From contig JARUHJ010000002.1 in assembly GCA_029667085.1 (NCBI GenBank), forward strand, positions 372,001-436,000: a stretch of 64,000 nucleotides of DNA. The letters run 5' to 3'. The DNA is from Deltaproteobacteria bacterium IMCC39524. Its GTDB lineage: Bacteria > Desulfobacterota > Desulfuromonadia > Desulfuromonadales > BM103. Numbering within the stretch: position 1 is the stretch's first letter; every line of letters starts with the position of its first letter. The notes beneath the pieces are model-generated. The model made no database searches and was not told the origin of the DNA. It saw only the letters and a list, made by a program, of their open reading frames with translations. Below are positions 8,542 to 41,115 of the stretch, piece by piece. The position numbers and the translations under genes were made by a program.

Positions 8542-9036
8542 ATGGATGTCATTCTGACTGAAAATGTTAAAAATCTCGGGACCATTGGTGAAGTGGTTAA
8601 GGTCAAGCCTGGCTATGGTCGTAATTTCCTGGTTCCTCAGGGGCTGGCTGTTGAAGCGAGTGAGGCTAAGCTCAAAGAACTTGAGCATCACAAGCGCCAG
8701 TTGAATCGCAAGGCTGAGAAGCTGAGCCAGGAAGCTGCTGACGTCAAGGCACGGATTGAGGCTGTTGAGTGTACTTTTGTGCACAAAGCAAGCGAAGAAG
8801 GCAAGCTGTTCGGCTCGGTCACCTCTATGGAAATCGCTGAAAGTCTCTCTTCCCAGGGTATTGAAATCGATCGTCGCAAGATCCTGCTTGAGCAGCCGAT
8901 TAAAGAACTTGGTGAGCACGCGATTGATATCAAGCTGAATGCTGGTGTTAATGCTATCGTTAAGATTAATGTTATCAGTGAAGATGCTCAGCCGGTTTCT
9001 ACAGACGTTCCTGCAGAGACTCCTGTAGACGCTTAA
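8542..9036 (+). CDS. rplI: 50S ribosomal protein L9
   Basis: Binds 23S rRNA near the L1 stalk. The N-terminal domain is unmistakable (MDVILTENVKNLGTIGEVV, then KPGYGRNFLVPQGLA), followed by the long connecting helix (about residues 42-75) and the C-terminal domain with LFGSVT and IKELGEHAIDIKL. The 164-aa length includes a short extra tail of about 15 residues. A clear GGGAGG site lies before the ATG. Confidence 0.96.
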   Translation: MDVILTENVKNLGTIGEVVKVKPGYGRNFLVPQGLAVEASEAKLKELEHHKRQLNRKAEKLSQEAADVKARIEAVECTFVHKASEEGKLFGSVTSMEIAESLSSQGIEIDRRKILLEQPIKELGEHAIDIKLNAGVNAIVKINVISEDAQPVSTDVPAETPVDA

Positions 9037-35989: not shown

Positions 35990-37690
35990 TTAATCGCTGT
36001 AGCGATATTCCTCAACCTGCATTTTCCGCCCGGTCCCTGTGAGATAGCAGAAGAGGTGAACAGTTCTTAGTTCCGGAGTGTGAATGGTGGTGAAGGCCGC
36101 GGCAAAATATTGCAGCTTAATCCCCTGACCCTTGATCGCTTCGGTCTTCTCCTGAACCCTTGTACGCACCCATTGCTCTTCTTCAGGTTCGAGGGCGGAG
36201 TCAAAAAACTCCGGAATACGGTTGGTGACAACGCGTTCGCAACGGGCGTAGTCGTAAGCGAGGCTTTCAATAAGTCGTGCTTGAGACGTTCCTTTGTCGC
36301 GTCCCCTGACGATCTCGTAAAGGTTCTGAAAAAGTGACTGGCGGTTTAAGGGGAAACGGAACAGCTCGCGTTTGCGCCACTCTCCAGCCAGCCATTCCAG
36401 CCCCATGGCAAAGGAGCCGGTTGCGTCGCTTAATTCGCGTATAAAGCTCGATAAATGACCGCTGTTGTACGTCAGGTCAAGAAGCCGACTGATCTCCTGG
36501 AGTTGCTGCAACTCGGCATAAGAGAGCTCAGGGCTGCCCAGAATCGTGTAGGGTGGGTTCGGGTCAAATCGGATCTGCAACTCTTCGGCTTGGTCGCGCA
36601 ACGGTGAGCCGGGTAGCAGCTTGACCGGTTCGATCTGCAGGTGGTGGGGGGCGAGGGCGGCCACCCGGTCAATTGATTTGAGAAAGCTGTTGTAGTTGTC
36701 ACCGGGAAGGCCGGCCACCAGGTCGAGGTGCATGTGAATCCGGTTGCTTTTGCGCAGGGACCGAATATTCTCCTCTAGTTTCTTCATATTGACCTTGCGA
36801 CCGATCGCATCGAGGGTACTCTCCAGGGTTGATTGCACCCCGATCTCAAACTGGAACATCTCTTCCGGGACTTGATCCAAAAGCTCGAGAGTCGCTTCGT
36901 CGAGCAGGTGGCCGGCGATCTCAAAATGAAAATGCGTCGACCGGTTGTGTTCCAGGATGAAGCTGAAAATCTCCTTGGCGCGACCGGCGTCGAAGTTGAA
37001 GGTGCGGTCGACCAGTTTGACCTTTGCAACGCCTTTCTGCATAAGCAAGAGCAGGTCGCTCTTAATGCGCTCCATGGAGTAGGAGCGAATCAGGTTGTCT
37101 CTGGCGCTTAAACAGAAGCTGCAGTGAAAGGGGCAACCGCGACTGGTCTCGTAATATACAAAGCCGCGCTCCATATCGGTCAGCCCGGTCTTGAAGGGTG
37201 AAGGGACTGTGTCGAGTTCTTTTAACGGCGGGCTGTCCGGCCCGCTGATGAGCTCTTCTCCAACACGCAGAACTGTTCTTGGAGCCACCCCTGGTTGTTG
37301 TCCCTGTTGCCAGGCAGATAGCAATGCACGCAAGGGTTCTTCCCCTTCACCGCGAATCAACGCCGTGATGCCGGGGTTGCGAGTAAAGATTTCCACACAT
37401 TCAAAAGAGACTTCAGGGCCGCCCAGGATGATGCGTAACTCGGGCCGAGCAACGTACAAGGCGTCGACCAGATCGAGGGTCTCGCGTCGGTTCCAGAGGT
37501 AGACGGAAAAGGCGACCACATCCGGGGCCACATCCAGAATCTGGGAGAGAATTGATTCGCGCGGTTCGTGGACGGTAAATTCACGGATCAGGAAATCGCC
37601 GCAATCATCTCCGCAATAGGCTGCGAGACAGGGCAGGGCGAGACTGTTATGAATGAACTTGCTGTGGAGTGTGCTGAGGATTGTTCGCAT
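35990..37690 (-). CDS. B12-binding domain/radical SAM protein (DUF4080 type)
   Basis: A 566-aa enzyme. The N-terminal about 150 residues resemble a cobalamin-binding Rossmann domain (DVVAFSVYLWNRRETLDLV and LRIILGGPEVSFE), though I see no DxHxxG. The radical SAM core follows with the cluster motif CPFHCSFC and TSRG upstream of it. The AGLPGDNYNSF loop and the C-terminal DUF4080 domain (LLDLTYNSGHLSSF onwards) complete the known plan. Reaction unknown; relatives include methyltransferases and methylthiotransferases. The ribosome site is weak. It is followed by the 121-aa gene in the same operon. Confidence 0.85.
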   Translation of the reverse strand: MRTILSTLHSKFIHNSLALPCLAAYCGDDCGDFLIREFTVHEPRESILSQILDVAPDVVAFSVYLWNRRETLDLVDALYVARPELRIILGGPEVSFECVEIFTRNPGITALIRGEGEEPLRALLSAWQQGQQPGVAPRTVLRVGEELISGPDSPPLKELDTVPSPFKTGLTDMERGFVYYETSRGCPFHCSFCLSARDNLIRSYSMERIKSDLLLLMQKGVAKVKLVDRTFNFDAGRAKEIFSFILEHNRSTHFHFEIAGHLLDEATLELLDQVPEEMFQFEIGVQSTLESTLDAIGRKVNMKKLEENIRSLRKSNRIHMHLDLVAGLPGDNYNSFLKSIDRVAALAPHHLQIEPVKLLPGSPLRDQAEELQIRFDPNPPYTILGSPELSYAELQQLQEISRLLDLTYNSGHLSSFIRELSDATGSFAMGLEWLAGEWRKRELFRFPLNRQSLFQNLYEIVRGRDKGTSQARLIESLAYDYARCERVVTNRIPEFFDSALEPEEEQWVRTRVQEKTEAIKGQGIKLQYFAAAFTTIHTPELRTVHLFCYLTGTGRKMQVEEYRYSD

Positions 37691-38155: not shown

Positions 38156-38965
38156 ATGTTACTTCATAAATATTATTTTGTAGCTCTCATTATTGCGATT
38201 TCTATAACATCAAGTGTTGTTGTCCTGTCTGCACCACTCACAGACCCAGACAATCAACATAATCTTTCGAGTACAGCGACTCATGGCGGACCACAAGCCC
38301 AACCTATAGCGACTGGAGGTACTGATCAGATTTGCATTTTCTGTCATACTCCACACTCTGCAACACCGGAGTCTACTCTTTGGAGTCGCCCGGATCCTAA
38401 CACTGGGACTTTTCCGCTTTATGGACAACAATTGGTCATTAAGGGAGATTATCCCGGATCCCCTGCGGGCTCTCAGGATCGCAGTCAATACAAGAATGAC
38501 GGGTCTGTCACCTATCCCAGCGGCGCTTCTCGGTTATGCCTTTCCTGTCATGATGGCGTGACGGCTATTGGTATACTGAACGATGGCACGTCAATTGCTA
38601 TGCTCGGTGGGCAAGACCTTGTCACTGGCGTAGCGGTTATTGATCTTTCGACATCTCATCCGATCTCATTTGTTTACGATAATGCAGTACTTGCCGATAT
38701 AAATACTGCCCGGCCTGGAACAACCTATCAGTTGCCGCTGAATCTAACCGTTCCCACCCCGCTTGACGGCGAGAACAAGATGCAATGCACGACTTGTCAT
38801 GATCCCCATAATGACACCTCTCTTGATGGCGGTGGTCTGCCCCCATTTTGGAGGTGGACAGGAACACCCATCGTTGATGAATATGACGATGTATGTAACC
38901 AGTGCCACATCGGCGGCAGTCCTGCAGGGCCTAGTGGGGATCATGATCCTGGCCCTGGAATTTAA
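38156..38965 (+). CDS. Tetrahaem c-type cytochrome, exported
   Basis: A 269-aa periplasmic electron-transfer protein. It has an N-terminal signal peptide (basic start and hydrophobic stretch to about residue 26, cut near LSA-PL). Four CxxCH haem sites are seen: CIFCH (60-64), CLSCH (128-132), CTTCH (211-215) and CNQCH (247-251). The spacing and DPDNQHNLS/HDPHND wording match the doubled-CxxCH family of metal-reducing bacteria. The C-terminus is Gly/Pro rich. It is monocistronic with its own terminator. The electron partner is unknown; a role in extracellular electron transfer is plausible but not shown. Confidence 0.9.
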   Translation: MLLHKYYFVALIIAISITSSVVVLSAPLTDPDNQHNLSSTATHGGPQAQPIATGGTDQICIFCHTPHSATPESTLWSRPDPNTGTFPLYGQQLVIKGDYPGSPAGSQDRSQYKNDGSVTYPSGASRLCLSCHDGVTAIGILNDGTSIAMLGGQDLVTGVAVIDLSTSHPISFVYDNAVLADINTARPGTTYQLPLNLTVPTPLDGENKMQCTTCHDPHNDTSLDGGGLPPFWRWTGTPIVDEYDDVCNQCHIGGSPAGPSGDHDPGPGI

Positions 38966-39213: not shown

Positions 39214-40065
39214 TTATTCTGATTGCTTTTTACTGCTTGGAATAAAGGCCTCCGGTTCCTCATAGCTCTCATAATCATGCCGCCTCCAGCGAAACGGCAA
39301 ATCAACGATCTCACCCGGAGTGGTGATGCCGTAAAGAGCCTTAAAGGCCTCAAGAATAACAGCTCGCTGCTGCTTAACCTTTCCCGGTTCACCAAGCGGA
39401 TGACCGAACGGCCATTTCAGGTAAACGCTGCGTGGCGGCTGAACCTTTTCTGTATACTCGCGAACGATGGTGACGCCAACGGTGGCGATTCCGGCTTTTT
39501 CAATCTCTCTTTGTATCAATCCCACGGATTGATTGCAGATGCCTCAAGCCGGGGTGAGCAGGACCACATCGACCTGGTCCTGTTTGAGCCTCCTTACCAC
39601 CTCCTGGGCGGCTTGTCCGATCAGGGTGGCGATGTGGCGACCGTCGATGTGGCCCATGAAGGAGTAGTGGGTGTCGGCCAGTTGACCGATAACGCCTTCC
39701 TGCTGCAGCTCCTGTAACCTCTGCAACGGAAAGATGATGTTGAGGTCTTTCTCGGCATCGCTGTGGTCGTAGTAGTCGTGGGTGATCTTGTAATCGTTGC
39801 CGATCGTCGCACCATCGATGGCCCTAAAGCTCGGATCACCATCGCTATCCTGCATGTCGAAGGGTTCTTGAGAGCTGTGATGCACACCTGATGTCGTGAC
39901 CAGCGCCAGCTTGCATTCGGCCAGTGGTTTGTGTGGAGGTGCCCAGGGCACAGCTTCACCGGATTCCCAGGGCTCATACGCAGTGATGAAGCGTTGGGCG
40001 AGGCCCGGGTAGCGGGTAATCACCTTGGCGATCAGGCGGTTTTTGAAGCGGTTGATTGTCGACAT
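39214..40065 (-). CDS. GrdB-like selenoprotein (glycine/sarcosine/betaine reductase B family), UGA recoded at 39544-39546
   Basis: Read through an in-frame TGA, the protein has 283 aa with selenocysteine at residue 174 in the motif LLTPA-U-GICNQSVGL. A cysteine lies three residues on, giving a UxxC redox pair. The N-terminal part (173 aa) and the C-terminal part (109 aa) are in the same frame, both look like selenoprotein B of the glycine/sarcosine/betaine/proline reductase family, and no start or ribosome site precedes the second part. Known members are shorter stand-alone forms in delta-proteobacteria without a GrdA/GrdC partner, so the substrate is unknown. The ATG at 40065 follows GGGAG. 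The SECIS hairpin is listed separately. Confidence 0.9.
39515..39533 (-). promoter_or_regulatory. Bacterial SECIS-like hairpin downstream of the recoded UGA
   Basis: On the coding strand, ATCAATCC and GGATTGAT form a perfect 8-bp stem around GUG. It starts 11 bases and its loop lies 19-21 bases after the UGA. Bacterial SECIS elements sit inside the reading frame just downstream of UGA with a G in the apical loop about 16-37 bases away. Both spacing and loop agree, so SelB could bind here. Confidence 0.82.
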
Positions 40066-40126
40066 AGAAGTCTCCCGTATAATTTTGTGAACGACAGTAT
40101 AATCATAATTATGCGCCGGATACTAG

Positions 40127-40188: not shown

Positions 40189-41115
40189 TCAGTTACGAAG
40201 CAAGGCAACTTCATCCTGCCTGGGTGTCTCTGCATTTTCTATAATTGGCAGGGTCGCGTTGTTCGCCCATTCAATCCATGAGCCATCGTAGTTCTTGACC
40301 TCGGAGTAGCCTAATCCTTGTAACACCAGAGTTGCATAAGATGAACGGATGCCGGTCTGGCAATGGGCGATGACCTCCTGACCAGAGGTGATGCCATGTT
40401 TTGCGAGCAGTTGGCGAATCTCACTCTCACTTTTTAAGACTTTAACGCCATCGACTTCGTGTTGCAACTTTGTCCAGTTAAGATGAGTCGCGCCGGGGAT
40501 ATGGCCGCCACGATCAGCGCGCACCTTTGTACCGTCATATTCTTCAGGTGTGCGGGTATCCCAGATGACGACCGAGGTATTGCCAAGCTGGGTCAACACG
40601 TAGTCGGCTTCGGCGCGTGCTTGACCCGGCGTTGAGACGCGGTAGCTGCTCGGTATTGCCGCCGCTGTTGGTAGTAAAGTTGTCGGATGTCCCTCTTTGG
40701 ACCATTTTTCATAACCGCCATCGAGAACCAGTACCTTGTTGTGCCCATGGTAGCGCAAGGTCCAGGCGAGGCGTGCTGCATAAGGGTTGCCGTCTTCGGC
40801 ATAAGTGACCACTGTGGTCTCGGGGGTAATGCCGAATTCCTGCATCAGGGTCTCGAAAGCGGTGGTGGTAGGAACCAGGCTCTTAACGCCGTCGCGCTTG
40901 TCGAGAAAGCCACTGCGAGGAAGGTGATGGGCTCCCTCAATGTGCCCCAGGATGAAGAGCGGGGTCTGACGAGCGTCGAGAATGACGACTTTCGAACGGT
41001 TCTCGGCCAGCCAGTCTGTTTGTACAAAGTAATCTCCCAGACCTGCGCTTGCCAGTGCTGGGAGAGCGGCTAGAAGTAAAATGGTGAGCGAGATGAGTTT
41101 TCTGAGTGACTGCAT
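40189..41115 (-). CDS. Exported thiosulfate sulfurtransferase (tandem rhodanese)
   Basis: A 308-aa periplasmic rhodanese. The signal peptide ends near residue 24 (LALASAG-type cut after a hydrophobic helix). The N-terminal rhodanese domain (about 25-145) keeps VILDARQTPLF and HIEGAHHLP but lacks a loop cysteine. The C-terminal domain (about 165-295) has VVIWDTRTPEEYDG, the CRxGxR-like loop with the catalytic Cys 252 (in AHCQTGIRSS) and GYSEVKNYDGSWIEW. This is the normal two-domain plan. It would move sulfane sulfur from thiosulfate or a related donor. AGGAGAC precedes the ATG. No operon partner. Confidence 0.9.
   Translation of the reverse strand: MQSLRKLISLTILLLAALPALASAGLGDYFVQTDWLAENRSKVVILDARQTPLFILGHIEGAHHLPRSGFLDKRDGVKSLVPTTTAFETLMQEFGITPETTVVTYAEDGNPYAARLAWTLRYHGHNKVLVLDGGYEKWSKEGHPTTLLPTAAAIPSSYRVSTPGQARAEADYVLTQLGNTSVVIWDTRTPEEYDGTKVRADRGGHIPGATHLNWTKLQHEVDGVKVLKSESEIRQLLAKHGITSGQEVIAHCQTGIRSSYATLVLQGLGYSEVKNYDGSWIEWANNATLPIIENAETPRQDEVALLRN

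Follow-up and report, generated by a model that had tools for sequence, protein, structure and literature searches.

The question raised by this locus is whether two short open reading frames parted by a single TGA are broken or separate genes, or the two halves of one intact gene in which the UGA specifies selenocysteine (Sec). In the window (the whole analysed stretch of 64,000 nt of DNA from Deltaproteobacteria bacterium IMCC39524), genetic code table 11 yields the frames 40065..39544 (173 aa) and 39525..39214 (103 aa, with a GTG start), both on the minus strand and in the same register, and the TGA at 39546..39544 is the sole stop that separates them. The sequence-only reading of this DNA had joined the two frames into a selenoprotein with the junction TPA-U-GIC; the arrangement of the frames is borne out by the ORF list, which places them on the minus strand, and the resulting UxxC motif by translation through the TGA. 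The gene so defined (40065..39214, minus strand) consists of 283 codons followed by TAA, with one in-frame TGA at codon 174 (39544..39546), and is preceded by GGGAG (40072..40076, minus strand), a likely ribosome-binding site judging from its sequence. The predicted readthrough protein has 283 residues (MSTINRFKNR...LLTPA-U-GICNQSVGLIQ...KKQSE), with Cys177 (codon 39535..39537, minus strand) as the second half of the UxxC motif.

Were the TGA a true stop, the locus would hold either two separate proteins or one gene that is truncated or in decay, and the two table 11 frames, the second with its own GTG start, lend themselves to such an interpretation. The codon usage of relatives at this site speaks against it. 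A search of 98 genomes at the protein level produced matches in 25, and TGA occupies the aligned codon in all 27 loci inspected, the window's own included; three further matches of this search stop short of the Sec site. A scan of contigs from named genomes, which employed an alignment with X at the Sec column, detected 244 relatives, and among the best 80 of these the codon is TGA in 79, GGA in one (L098) and a Cys codon in none. The search patterns had been placed beside the Sec column and not on it, so the design did not rule out Cys forms. Of 30 loci read at the Sec codon in a later phylum search, 29 have TGA and the remaining one, a repeat of the L098 sequence, has GGA; the three locus sets overlap. 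A far GrdB-type match of the phylum search (G129:C168), outside the 30 that were read, seemingly spans the site without a stop. The record titles of the 80 loci include Desulfuromonadales, Deltaproteobacteria, Nitrospirae, Desulfobacterales, Thermodesulfobacteriota, one Rokuibacteriota MAG and others. Homologs that end at the UGA, or that start separately after it, had been named in advance as the pattern contrary to Sec insertion, and neither was seen in the relatives examined.

The part of the frame that follows the TGA shows the signature of a coding sequence. The dN/dS ratios (Nei-Gojobori) before and after the TGA are 0.051 and 0.057 for L010, 0.094 and 0.028 for L011, and 0.113 and 0.046 for L018, with the qualification that these pairs were aligned gap-free outward from the TGA, which may make distant relatives look more divergent upstream of the TGA than they are, and that dS is saturated in several rows. 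Sequence identity after the TGA equals or exceeds that before it in 20 of 21 relatives, the exception being L017 (0.81 before, 0.80 after). The sequence comparison thus indicates that purifying selection persists past the TGA and that the downstream part is protein. Furthermore, conserved residues, Cys177 among them, are encoded downstream of the UGA but ahead of the GTG that opens the second frame, which argues against reinitiation at that GTG and, more generally, against a true stop. The Sec position and Cys177 are both invariant in all 49 rows of alignment A3, a hand-chosen set of 49 of the 81 sequences that omits L098 (GGA), L073 and L081 (extra stops) and L058 (contig end).

Decay or sequence error does occur within the family, and this is the other observation with which a true stop would agree. 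An additional in-gene stop is present in two of the 80 loci. In L073 (Malonomonas rubra SZUA-375), a second copy, TAA appears before the Sec codon, at match codon 99, and the loop of the hairpin described below is changed to UAC, so this copy is perhaps decaying; L065, from the same isolate, has no such stop. In L081, a TAG (8625-8627) at match codon 209, 34 codons past Sec, reflects either decay or a sequence error, and the near relative L057 is open at this position. The single GGA (Gly) codon, at L098:8508-8510 (GWB2_55_19; identical to L139 of genome G409), lies in a frame and next to a hairpin that are otherwise intact, and represents either a recent loss of Sec or a sequence error; L141, which shares the genus code of L098 and L139, retains TGA. 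In yet another locus (L072:3675-5141), the frame continues for 318 codons past Sec, about 215 beyond the usual end, as a result of either a fusion or a lost stop.

A hairpin of 8 bp with a GUG loop, AUCAAUCC-GUG-GGAUUGAU, is located at 39533..39515 (minus strand), that is, +11 to +29 after the UGA, exactly where it had been placed before this analysis. The rule given for bacterial SECIS elements in PMC1088965 (this and the other papers are cited from excerpts), namely a stem-loop immediately 3' to the UGA whose apical loop is small and contains G, fits this structure. Folding energy is unconvincing alone and was dropped as evidence: the z-score is -0.29 over 58 nt and -1.60 over 43 nt, and in the latter case 15 of 200 shuffled sequences are at least as stable. 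It is the comparison among relatives by which the hairpin was judged to exceed chance. Over 81 sequences, the Gln/Arg and Leu codons that face each other in the stem occur as CAG-CTG (34), CGG-CTG (25), CAA-TTG (21) and CAG-CTT (1), and the mismatched combinations CAA-CTG and CAG-TTG are absent from all 81. Among 76 distinct rows, 97.7% of the hairpin cells are paired, compared with 8.6-53.3% when the partner strand is slid by 1-3 columns, and all eight positions pair in 67 of 80 rows, with 13 of the 80 incomplete. In the same 76 rows, double-change cells number 25, where shuffling gives 4.9 on average (a register slid by -1 gives 27), and the covariation score is unmatched by any shuffle; two of the five pair measures do not rise above the shuffles, with both-side-change pairs as high in 323 of 500 and further pair types in 500 of 500. 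Of the 6912 synonymous codings of NQSVGLI, 144 pair fully, 24 of these by Watson-Crick pairs alone, and the coding found in the window is Watson-Crick throughout.

A quick protein tree, for which the hairpin region was omitted, implies at least 10 changes of state for one of the two covarying pairs and at least 9 for the other; one unpaired state, in L090, is counted among the 9. When the quick tree (with L073 left out) is restricted to well-supported branches, only 4 and 3 independent pairs are available, all in one direction save an occasional tie, and the corresponding p values, 0.125 and 0.25, come from numbers of pairs that cannot reach 0.05. Taken at the level of sequence, these patterns indicate that the hairpin is RNA-constrained. 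The claim of a matching SECIS thus stands as far as pairing and covariation across relatives are concerned and gains nothing from the folding energy of the single hairpin. A search against Rfam at the gathering threshold reported no SECIS family in the window, where it found tRNA alone, and nothing in the selD locus of the same genome either, so its silence on SECIS elements is uninformative.

The genome encodes a complete apparatus for Sec incorporation. The Rfam model for tRNA-Sec scores 75.3 bits, in a search that also gave matches in all 14 control genomes (above the cut-off in 5), and ARAGORN identifies the same gene as tRNA-SeC with anticodon tca; a second hit of 48.2 bits (cut-off 47) is a tRNA-Trp according to ARAGORN. 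The selA (620.6 bits), selB (405.5 bits) and selD (361.8 bits) genes all score above their cut-offs and form one cluster (C2:158492-162931). The selD gene carries an in-frame TGA of its own, reading SGUAAK, and is a second gene of this genome that is best read with UGA as Sec. Only a few nucleotides from the tRNA-Sec gene is yedF (L001:1497-2197, G000:C2 near 192600; 203.1 bits, cut-off 110), a selenium-metabolism gene. All four of selA, selB, selC and selD are thus present, and the absence that the sequence-only reading had specified as grounds for refutation is not observed. Co-occurrence across the phylum was considered as an additional line of evidence and rejected: SelA is found in 364 of 394 genomes, including 97 of the 101 with a PrdB/GrdB-like match (4 of which thus show no SelA) and 267 of the 293 without one, a contrast that is too small, and the genome lists were compared by eye.

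The TGA in 79 of 80 loci, the constraint that extends past it, the covariation in the hairpin and the complete Sec machinery together make it highly probable, on sequence grounds, that the stretch 40065..39214 is one intact selenoprotein gene with UGA174 read as Sec. Given the same evidence, a true stop at this position appears extremely improbable. SelB and Sec-tRNA(Sec) would decode UGA174 as selenocysteine, aided by the hairpin located just downstream, and the product would be a protein of 283 residues that belongs to the PrdB/GrdB family and has the active site Sec174-Gly-Ile-Cys177.

The search of the joined halves against the selenoprotein B families, which had been recommended as a check, placed this product above the cut-offs of PF07355 (59.3 bits, cut-off 22) and TIGR01918 (80.7 bits, cut-off 65.45). 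The best-scoring model is TIGR04483 (PrdB), with 171 bits and an E-value of 2.7e-50 over residues 41-262, under its cut-off of 300. The GrdB, GrdF and GrdH models yield 69.8-80.4 bits against cut-offs of 602-800 and align only from about position 200; for TIGR01917 (GrdB), in particular, the score is 69.8 bits against 602.2, below the cut-off, and the match covers positions 200-420 of 431. The same five families are matched by all 49 relatives scanned at E <= 0.01. The UGSC family (NF041046) is matched at 11.9 bits (cut-off 125) over residues 151-199 around Sec, so that the protein is not a member, and 9 of the 49 relatives match this model at E <= 0.01.

By these scores, the protein is assigned to the GrdB/PrdB selenoprotein family, as more PrdB-like than GrdB proper; it is classified as neither a glycine reductase GrdB nor, by the curated cut-off, a D-proline reductase PrdB. 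The initial description as GrdB-like accordingly holds at the level of the family, through PF07355 and TIGR01918, and has to be amended to PrdB-like in that both the N-terminal half of GrdB and the UxxCxxC motif are missing. With GrdB, GrdF and GrdH (PF07355, TIGR01917/01918), the protein has in common the above-cut-off matches to PF07355 and TIGR01918 and Sec at the same site, and differs from them in the lack of the N-terminal half, of the third Cys of UxxCxxC, and of a GrdA match in its genome. The UxxCxxC motif is attributed to GrdB in the available part of PMC13188914, and the GrdB-like loci L032 and L033 read U-GTCTRC. With PrdB (TIGR04483), it shares the size class, Sec within UxxC and the alignment over residues 41-262; unlike PrdB, it has about 40 residues ahead of the matched part, a rhodanese gene as its neighbor and no PrdA match in its genome, in addition to the score below the cut-off.

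Residues 3-29, N-terminal to the main domain, form a conserved, basic, amphipathic-looking helical stretch (RxKNRLIAxxxTRFP), which might anchor the protein at the membrane surface. In the excerpt of PMC13188914, D-proline reductase is said to be membrane-associated. An AlphaFold2 model computed from 49 rows has a pLDDT of 92.2 and a pTM of 0.91. Among solved structures, the sequence search produced one match (E 0.21) and the best Foldseek hit has an E-value of 0.015 and a TM-score of 0.25; none of these is convincing, and hence no mechanism can be transferred from a structure.

The high rank of TIGR04483 among the models and its matches in all 49 relatives, together with catalogs that name such selenoproteins 'proline reductase PrdB' (PMC1794560, PMC2398784 and PMC1088965, as excerpted), could be taken to mean that the protein is a true D-proline reductase PrdB whose PrdA partner is divergent or missed. 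Against this stand the score of 171 bits where 300 are required, the rhodanese neighbor and the distribution of PrdA. No match to PrdA (TIGR04480) was found in the window's genome, and the named controls gave none either; likewise, GrdA (PF04723) had no match in this genome or in the control genomes. Across the 394 genomes of the phylum, the PrdA model has no match above the cut-off and weak matches in 18. Every one of these 18 belongs to the 101 genomes that have a PrdB/GrdB-like match, and each has a weak PrdA match no more than about 2 kb from a GrdB-type match (by eye). The PrdA model can accordingly detect pyruvoyl-type subunits in this phylum, and 83 of the 101 genomes lack any match to it. 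A true D-proline reductase with an overlooked partner is, on this evidence, improbable. Since no pyruvoyl partner was found, the substrate is probably not proline, and the protein is probably not a D-proline reductase. Its description as stand-alone is upheld to the extent that the genome has no PrdA or GrdA match and needs correction in that a rhodanese gene adjoins it.

Selenoproteins of this kind have been reported before. According to the excerpts, the Sargasso Sea data contain 42 'proline reductase PrdB' selenoprotein genes (PMC1088965), the GOS data contain 235 Sec and 110 Cys homologs of PrdB, listed with pfam07355 and UxxC (PMC2398784), and a 'proline reductase' selenoprotein occurs in Geobacter uraniireducens and Anaeromyxobacter (PMC1794560). 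The 'PrdB' of marine data, G. uraniireducens and Anaeromyxobacter, set beside our protein by description, has pfam07355 and UxxC in the GOS table (PMC2398784, in part) and probably includes its type. The proportion of Cys forms differs, with 110 Cys versus 235 Sec in the excerpted GOS counts (PMC2398784) and no Cys in the best 80 of our 244 loci. 'PrdB' selenoproteins have been cataloged since 2005, and the window gene is a further member of that known type. Another GrdB-type selenoprotein, FarB, which with FarE is GrdB/GrdE-like and proposed for fluoroacetate reduction in Synergistota (PMC10838667, in part), resembles it, by description, in being proposed to act on a bond other than the C-N bond of glycine, and differs in working with a GrdE-type partner and a transporter; this proposal suggests that the GrdB-type family serves several substrates.

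Directly upstream of the selenoprotein gene, on the same strand, is a gene (41115..40189, minus strand) for a double rhodanese (PF00581, 129.3 bits over two stretches) with an apparent signal peptide (by eye); 123 nt separate it from the selenoprotein ATG, and it is a possible operon partner. In a survey of 81 loci that covered up to 8 kb on each side (with at least 1.2 kb upstream in 72 of the 80 other loci), a rhodanese homolog is encoded upstream, in the same orientation, in 19, namely the window and 18 of the 80 others. In 18 of the 19 it is directly upstream: eight loci have a gap of 4-24 nt, two a 4-nt overlap and eight, the window among them, a gap of 120-274 nt. The rhodanese-linked records are labeled Desulfuromonadales, Geobacteraceae, Geopsychrobacter, Malonomonas, Pelovirga or plain Deltaproteobacteria, and two of the loci, L057 and L081, have two rhodanese copies upstream. 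Elsewhere, the upstream gene encodes a cytochrome c, an FAD oxidoreductase or a methyltransferase (at least one example each) or, in some loci, what we take from its sequence to be a metal P-type ATPase. No universal operon surrounds the selenoprotein gene among the 81 loci. On its other side in the window are a convergent gene for a CXXCH-type heme protein (38156-38965, plus strand) and a gene for a protein of the B12-binding/radical SAM type (35990-37690, minus strand), which stays under the cut-off for each of the 25 NCBIfam matches listed; 6 of the 81 loci, the window included, have a gene of the latter type downstream in the same orientation.

The rhodanese neighbor raises the possibility of a chalcogen enzyme that acts together with the exported rhodanese on sulfane sulfur, selenite/tellurite or a similar substrate. 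Apart from the 19 of 81 loci with this gene upstream, such a role finds some agreement in the match of the window rhodanese to ExtH of selenite/tellurite reduction operons, at 83.9 bits below the cut-off of 200. However, the link is confined to these 19 loci, with other upstream genes elsewhere; the rhodanese is apparently exported whereas the selenoprotein has no visible signal peptide (both by eye); and the best NCBIfam match of the rhodanese, all of which are below cut-off, is another sulfurtransferase model, 3-mercaptopyruvate sulfurtransferase (115.1 bits against 250). On balance, we regard this assignment as doubtful. No open-licence paper was found that addresses the rhodanese link or a function without PrdA.

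With respect to the more general reading, namely that the protein is a stand-alone Sec-x-x-Cys reductase, either soluble or at the membrane surface, the analogy with the family, together with a neighbor conserved in part of it, makes it an even proposition. Sec174 and Cys177 would constitute its redox pair, by comparison with related enzymes. The selenolate of Sec174 would attack a small substrate; cleavage of the Se-substrate bond would then leave Sec174 and Cys177 joined as a selenenylsulfide, to be reset by a thiol donor. Such a cycle is likely by analogy with the GrdB/PrdB enzymes: selenolate attack and a selenenylsulfide cycle are proposed for glycine and D-proline reductase, and in the latter proline is bound to the pyruvoyl group (PMC10298544, in the excerpt available). 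In Desulfuromonadales-type bacteria, the substrate may, as a weak inference from the rhodanese gene, be tied to the handling of sulfur or another chalcogen. The specific combination, a half-size Sec enzyme of the GrdB/PrdB type that dispenses with a pyruvoyl subunit and, partnered by an exported double rhodanese, acts on a substrate containing sulfur or another chalcogen, is put forward tentatively, as somewhat short of an even chance.

Without recoding of UGA as Sec, this gene would look broken, and the present case corrects that possible misreading. The confidently predicted model, along with the lack of a solved relative, makes the protein a sensible structural target. The name 'PrdB' implies a proline reductase that operates with PrdA, which is not found above the cut-off in any of the 394 genomes of the phylum, and in marine data 'PrdB' ranks with the most abundant families of selenoproteins (PMC2398784, as excerpted). 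If the tentative proposal above is true, these proteins would represent not an amino-acid reductase but a new selenoenzyme activity that has been cataloged as proline reductase.
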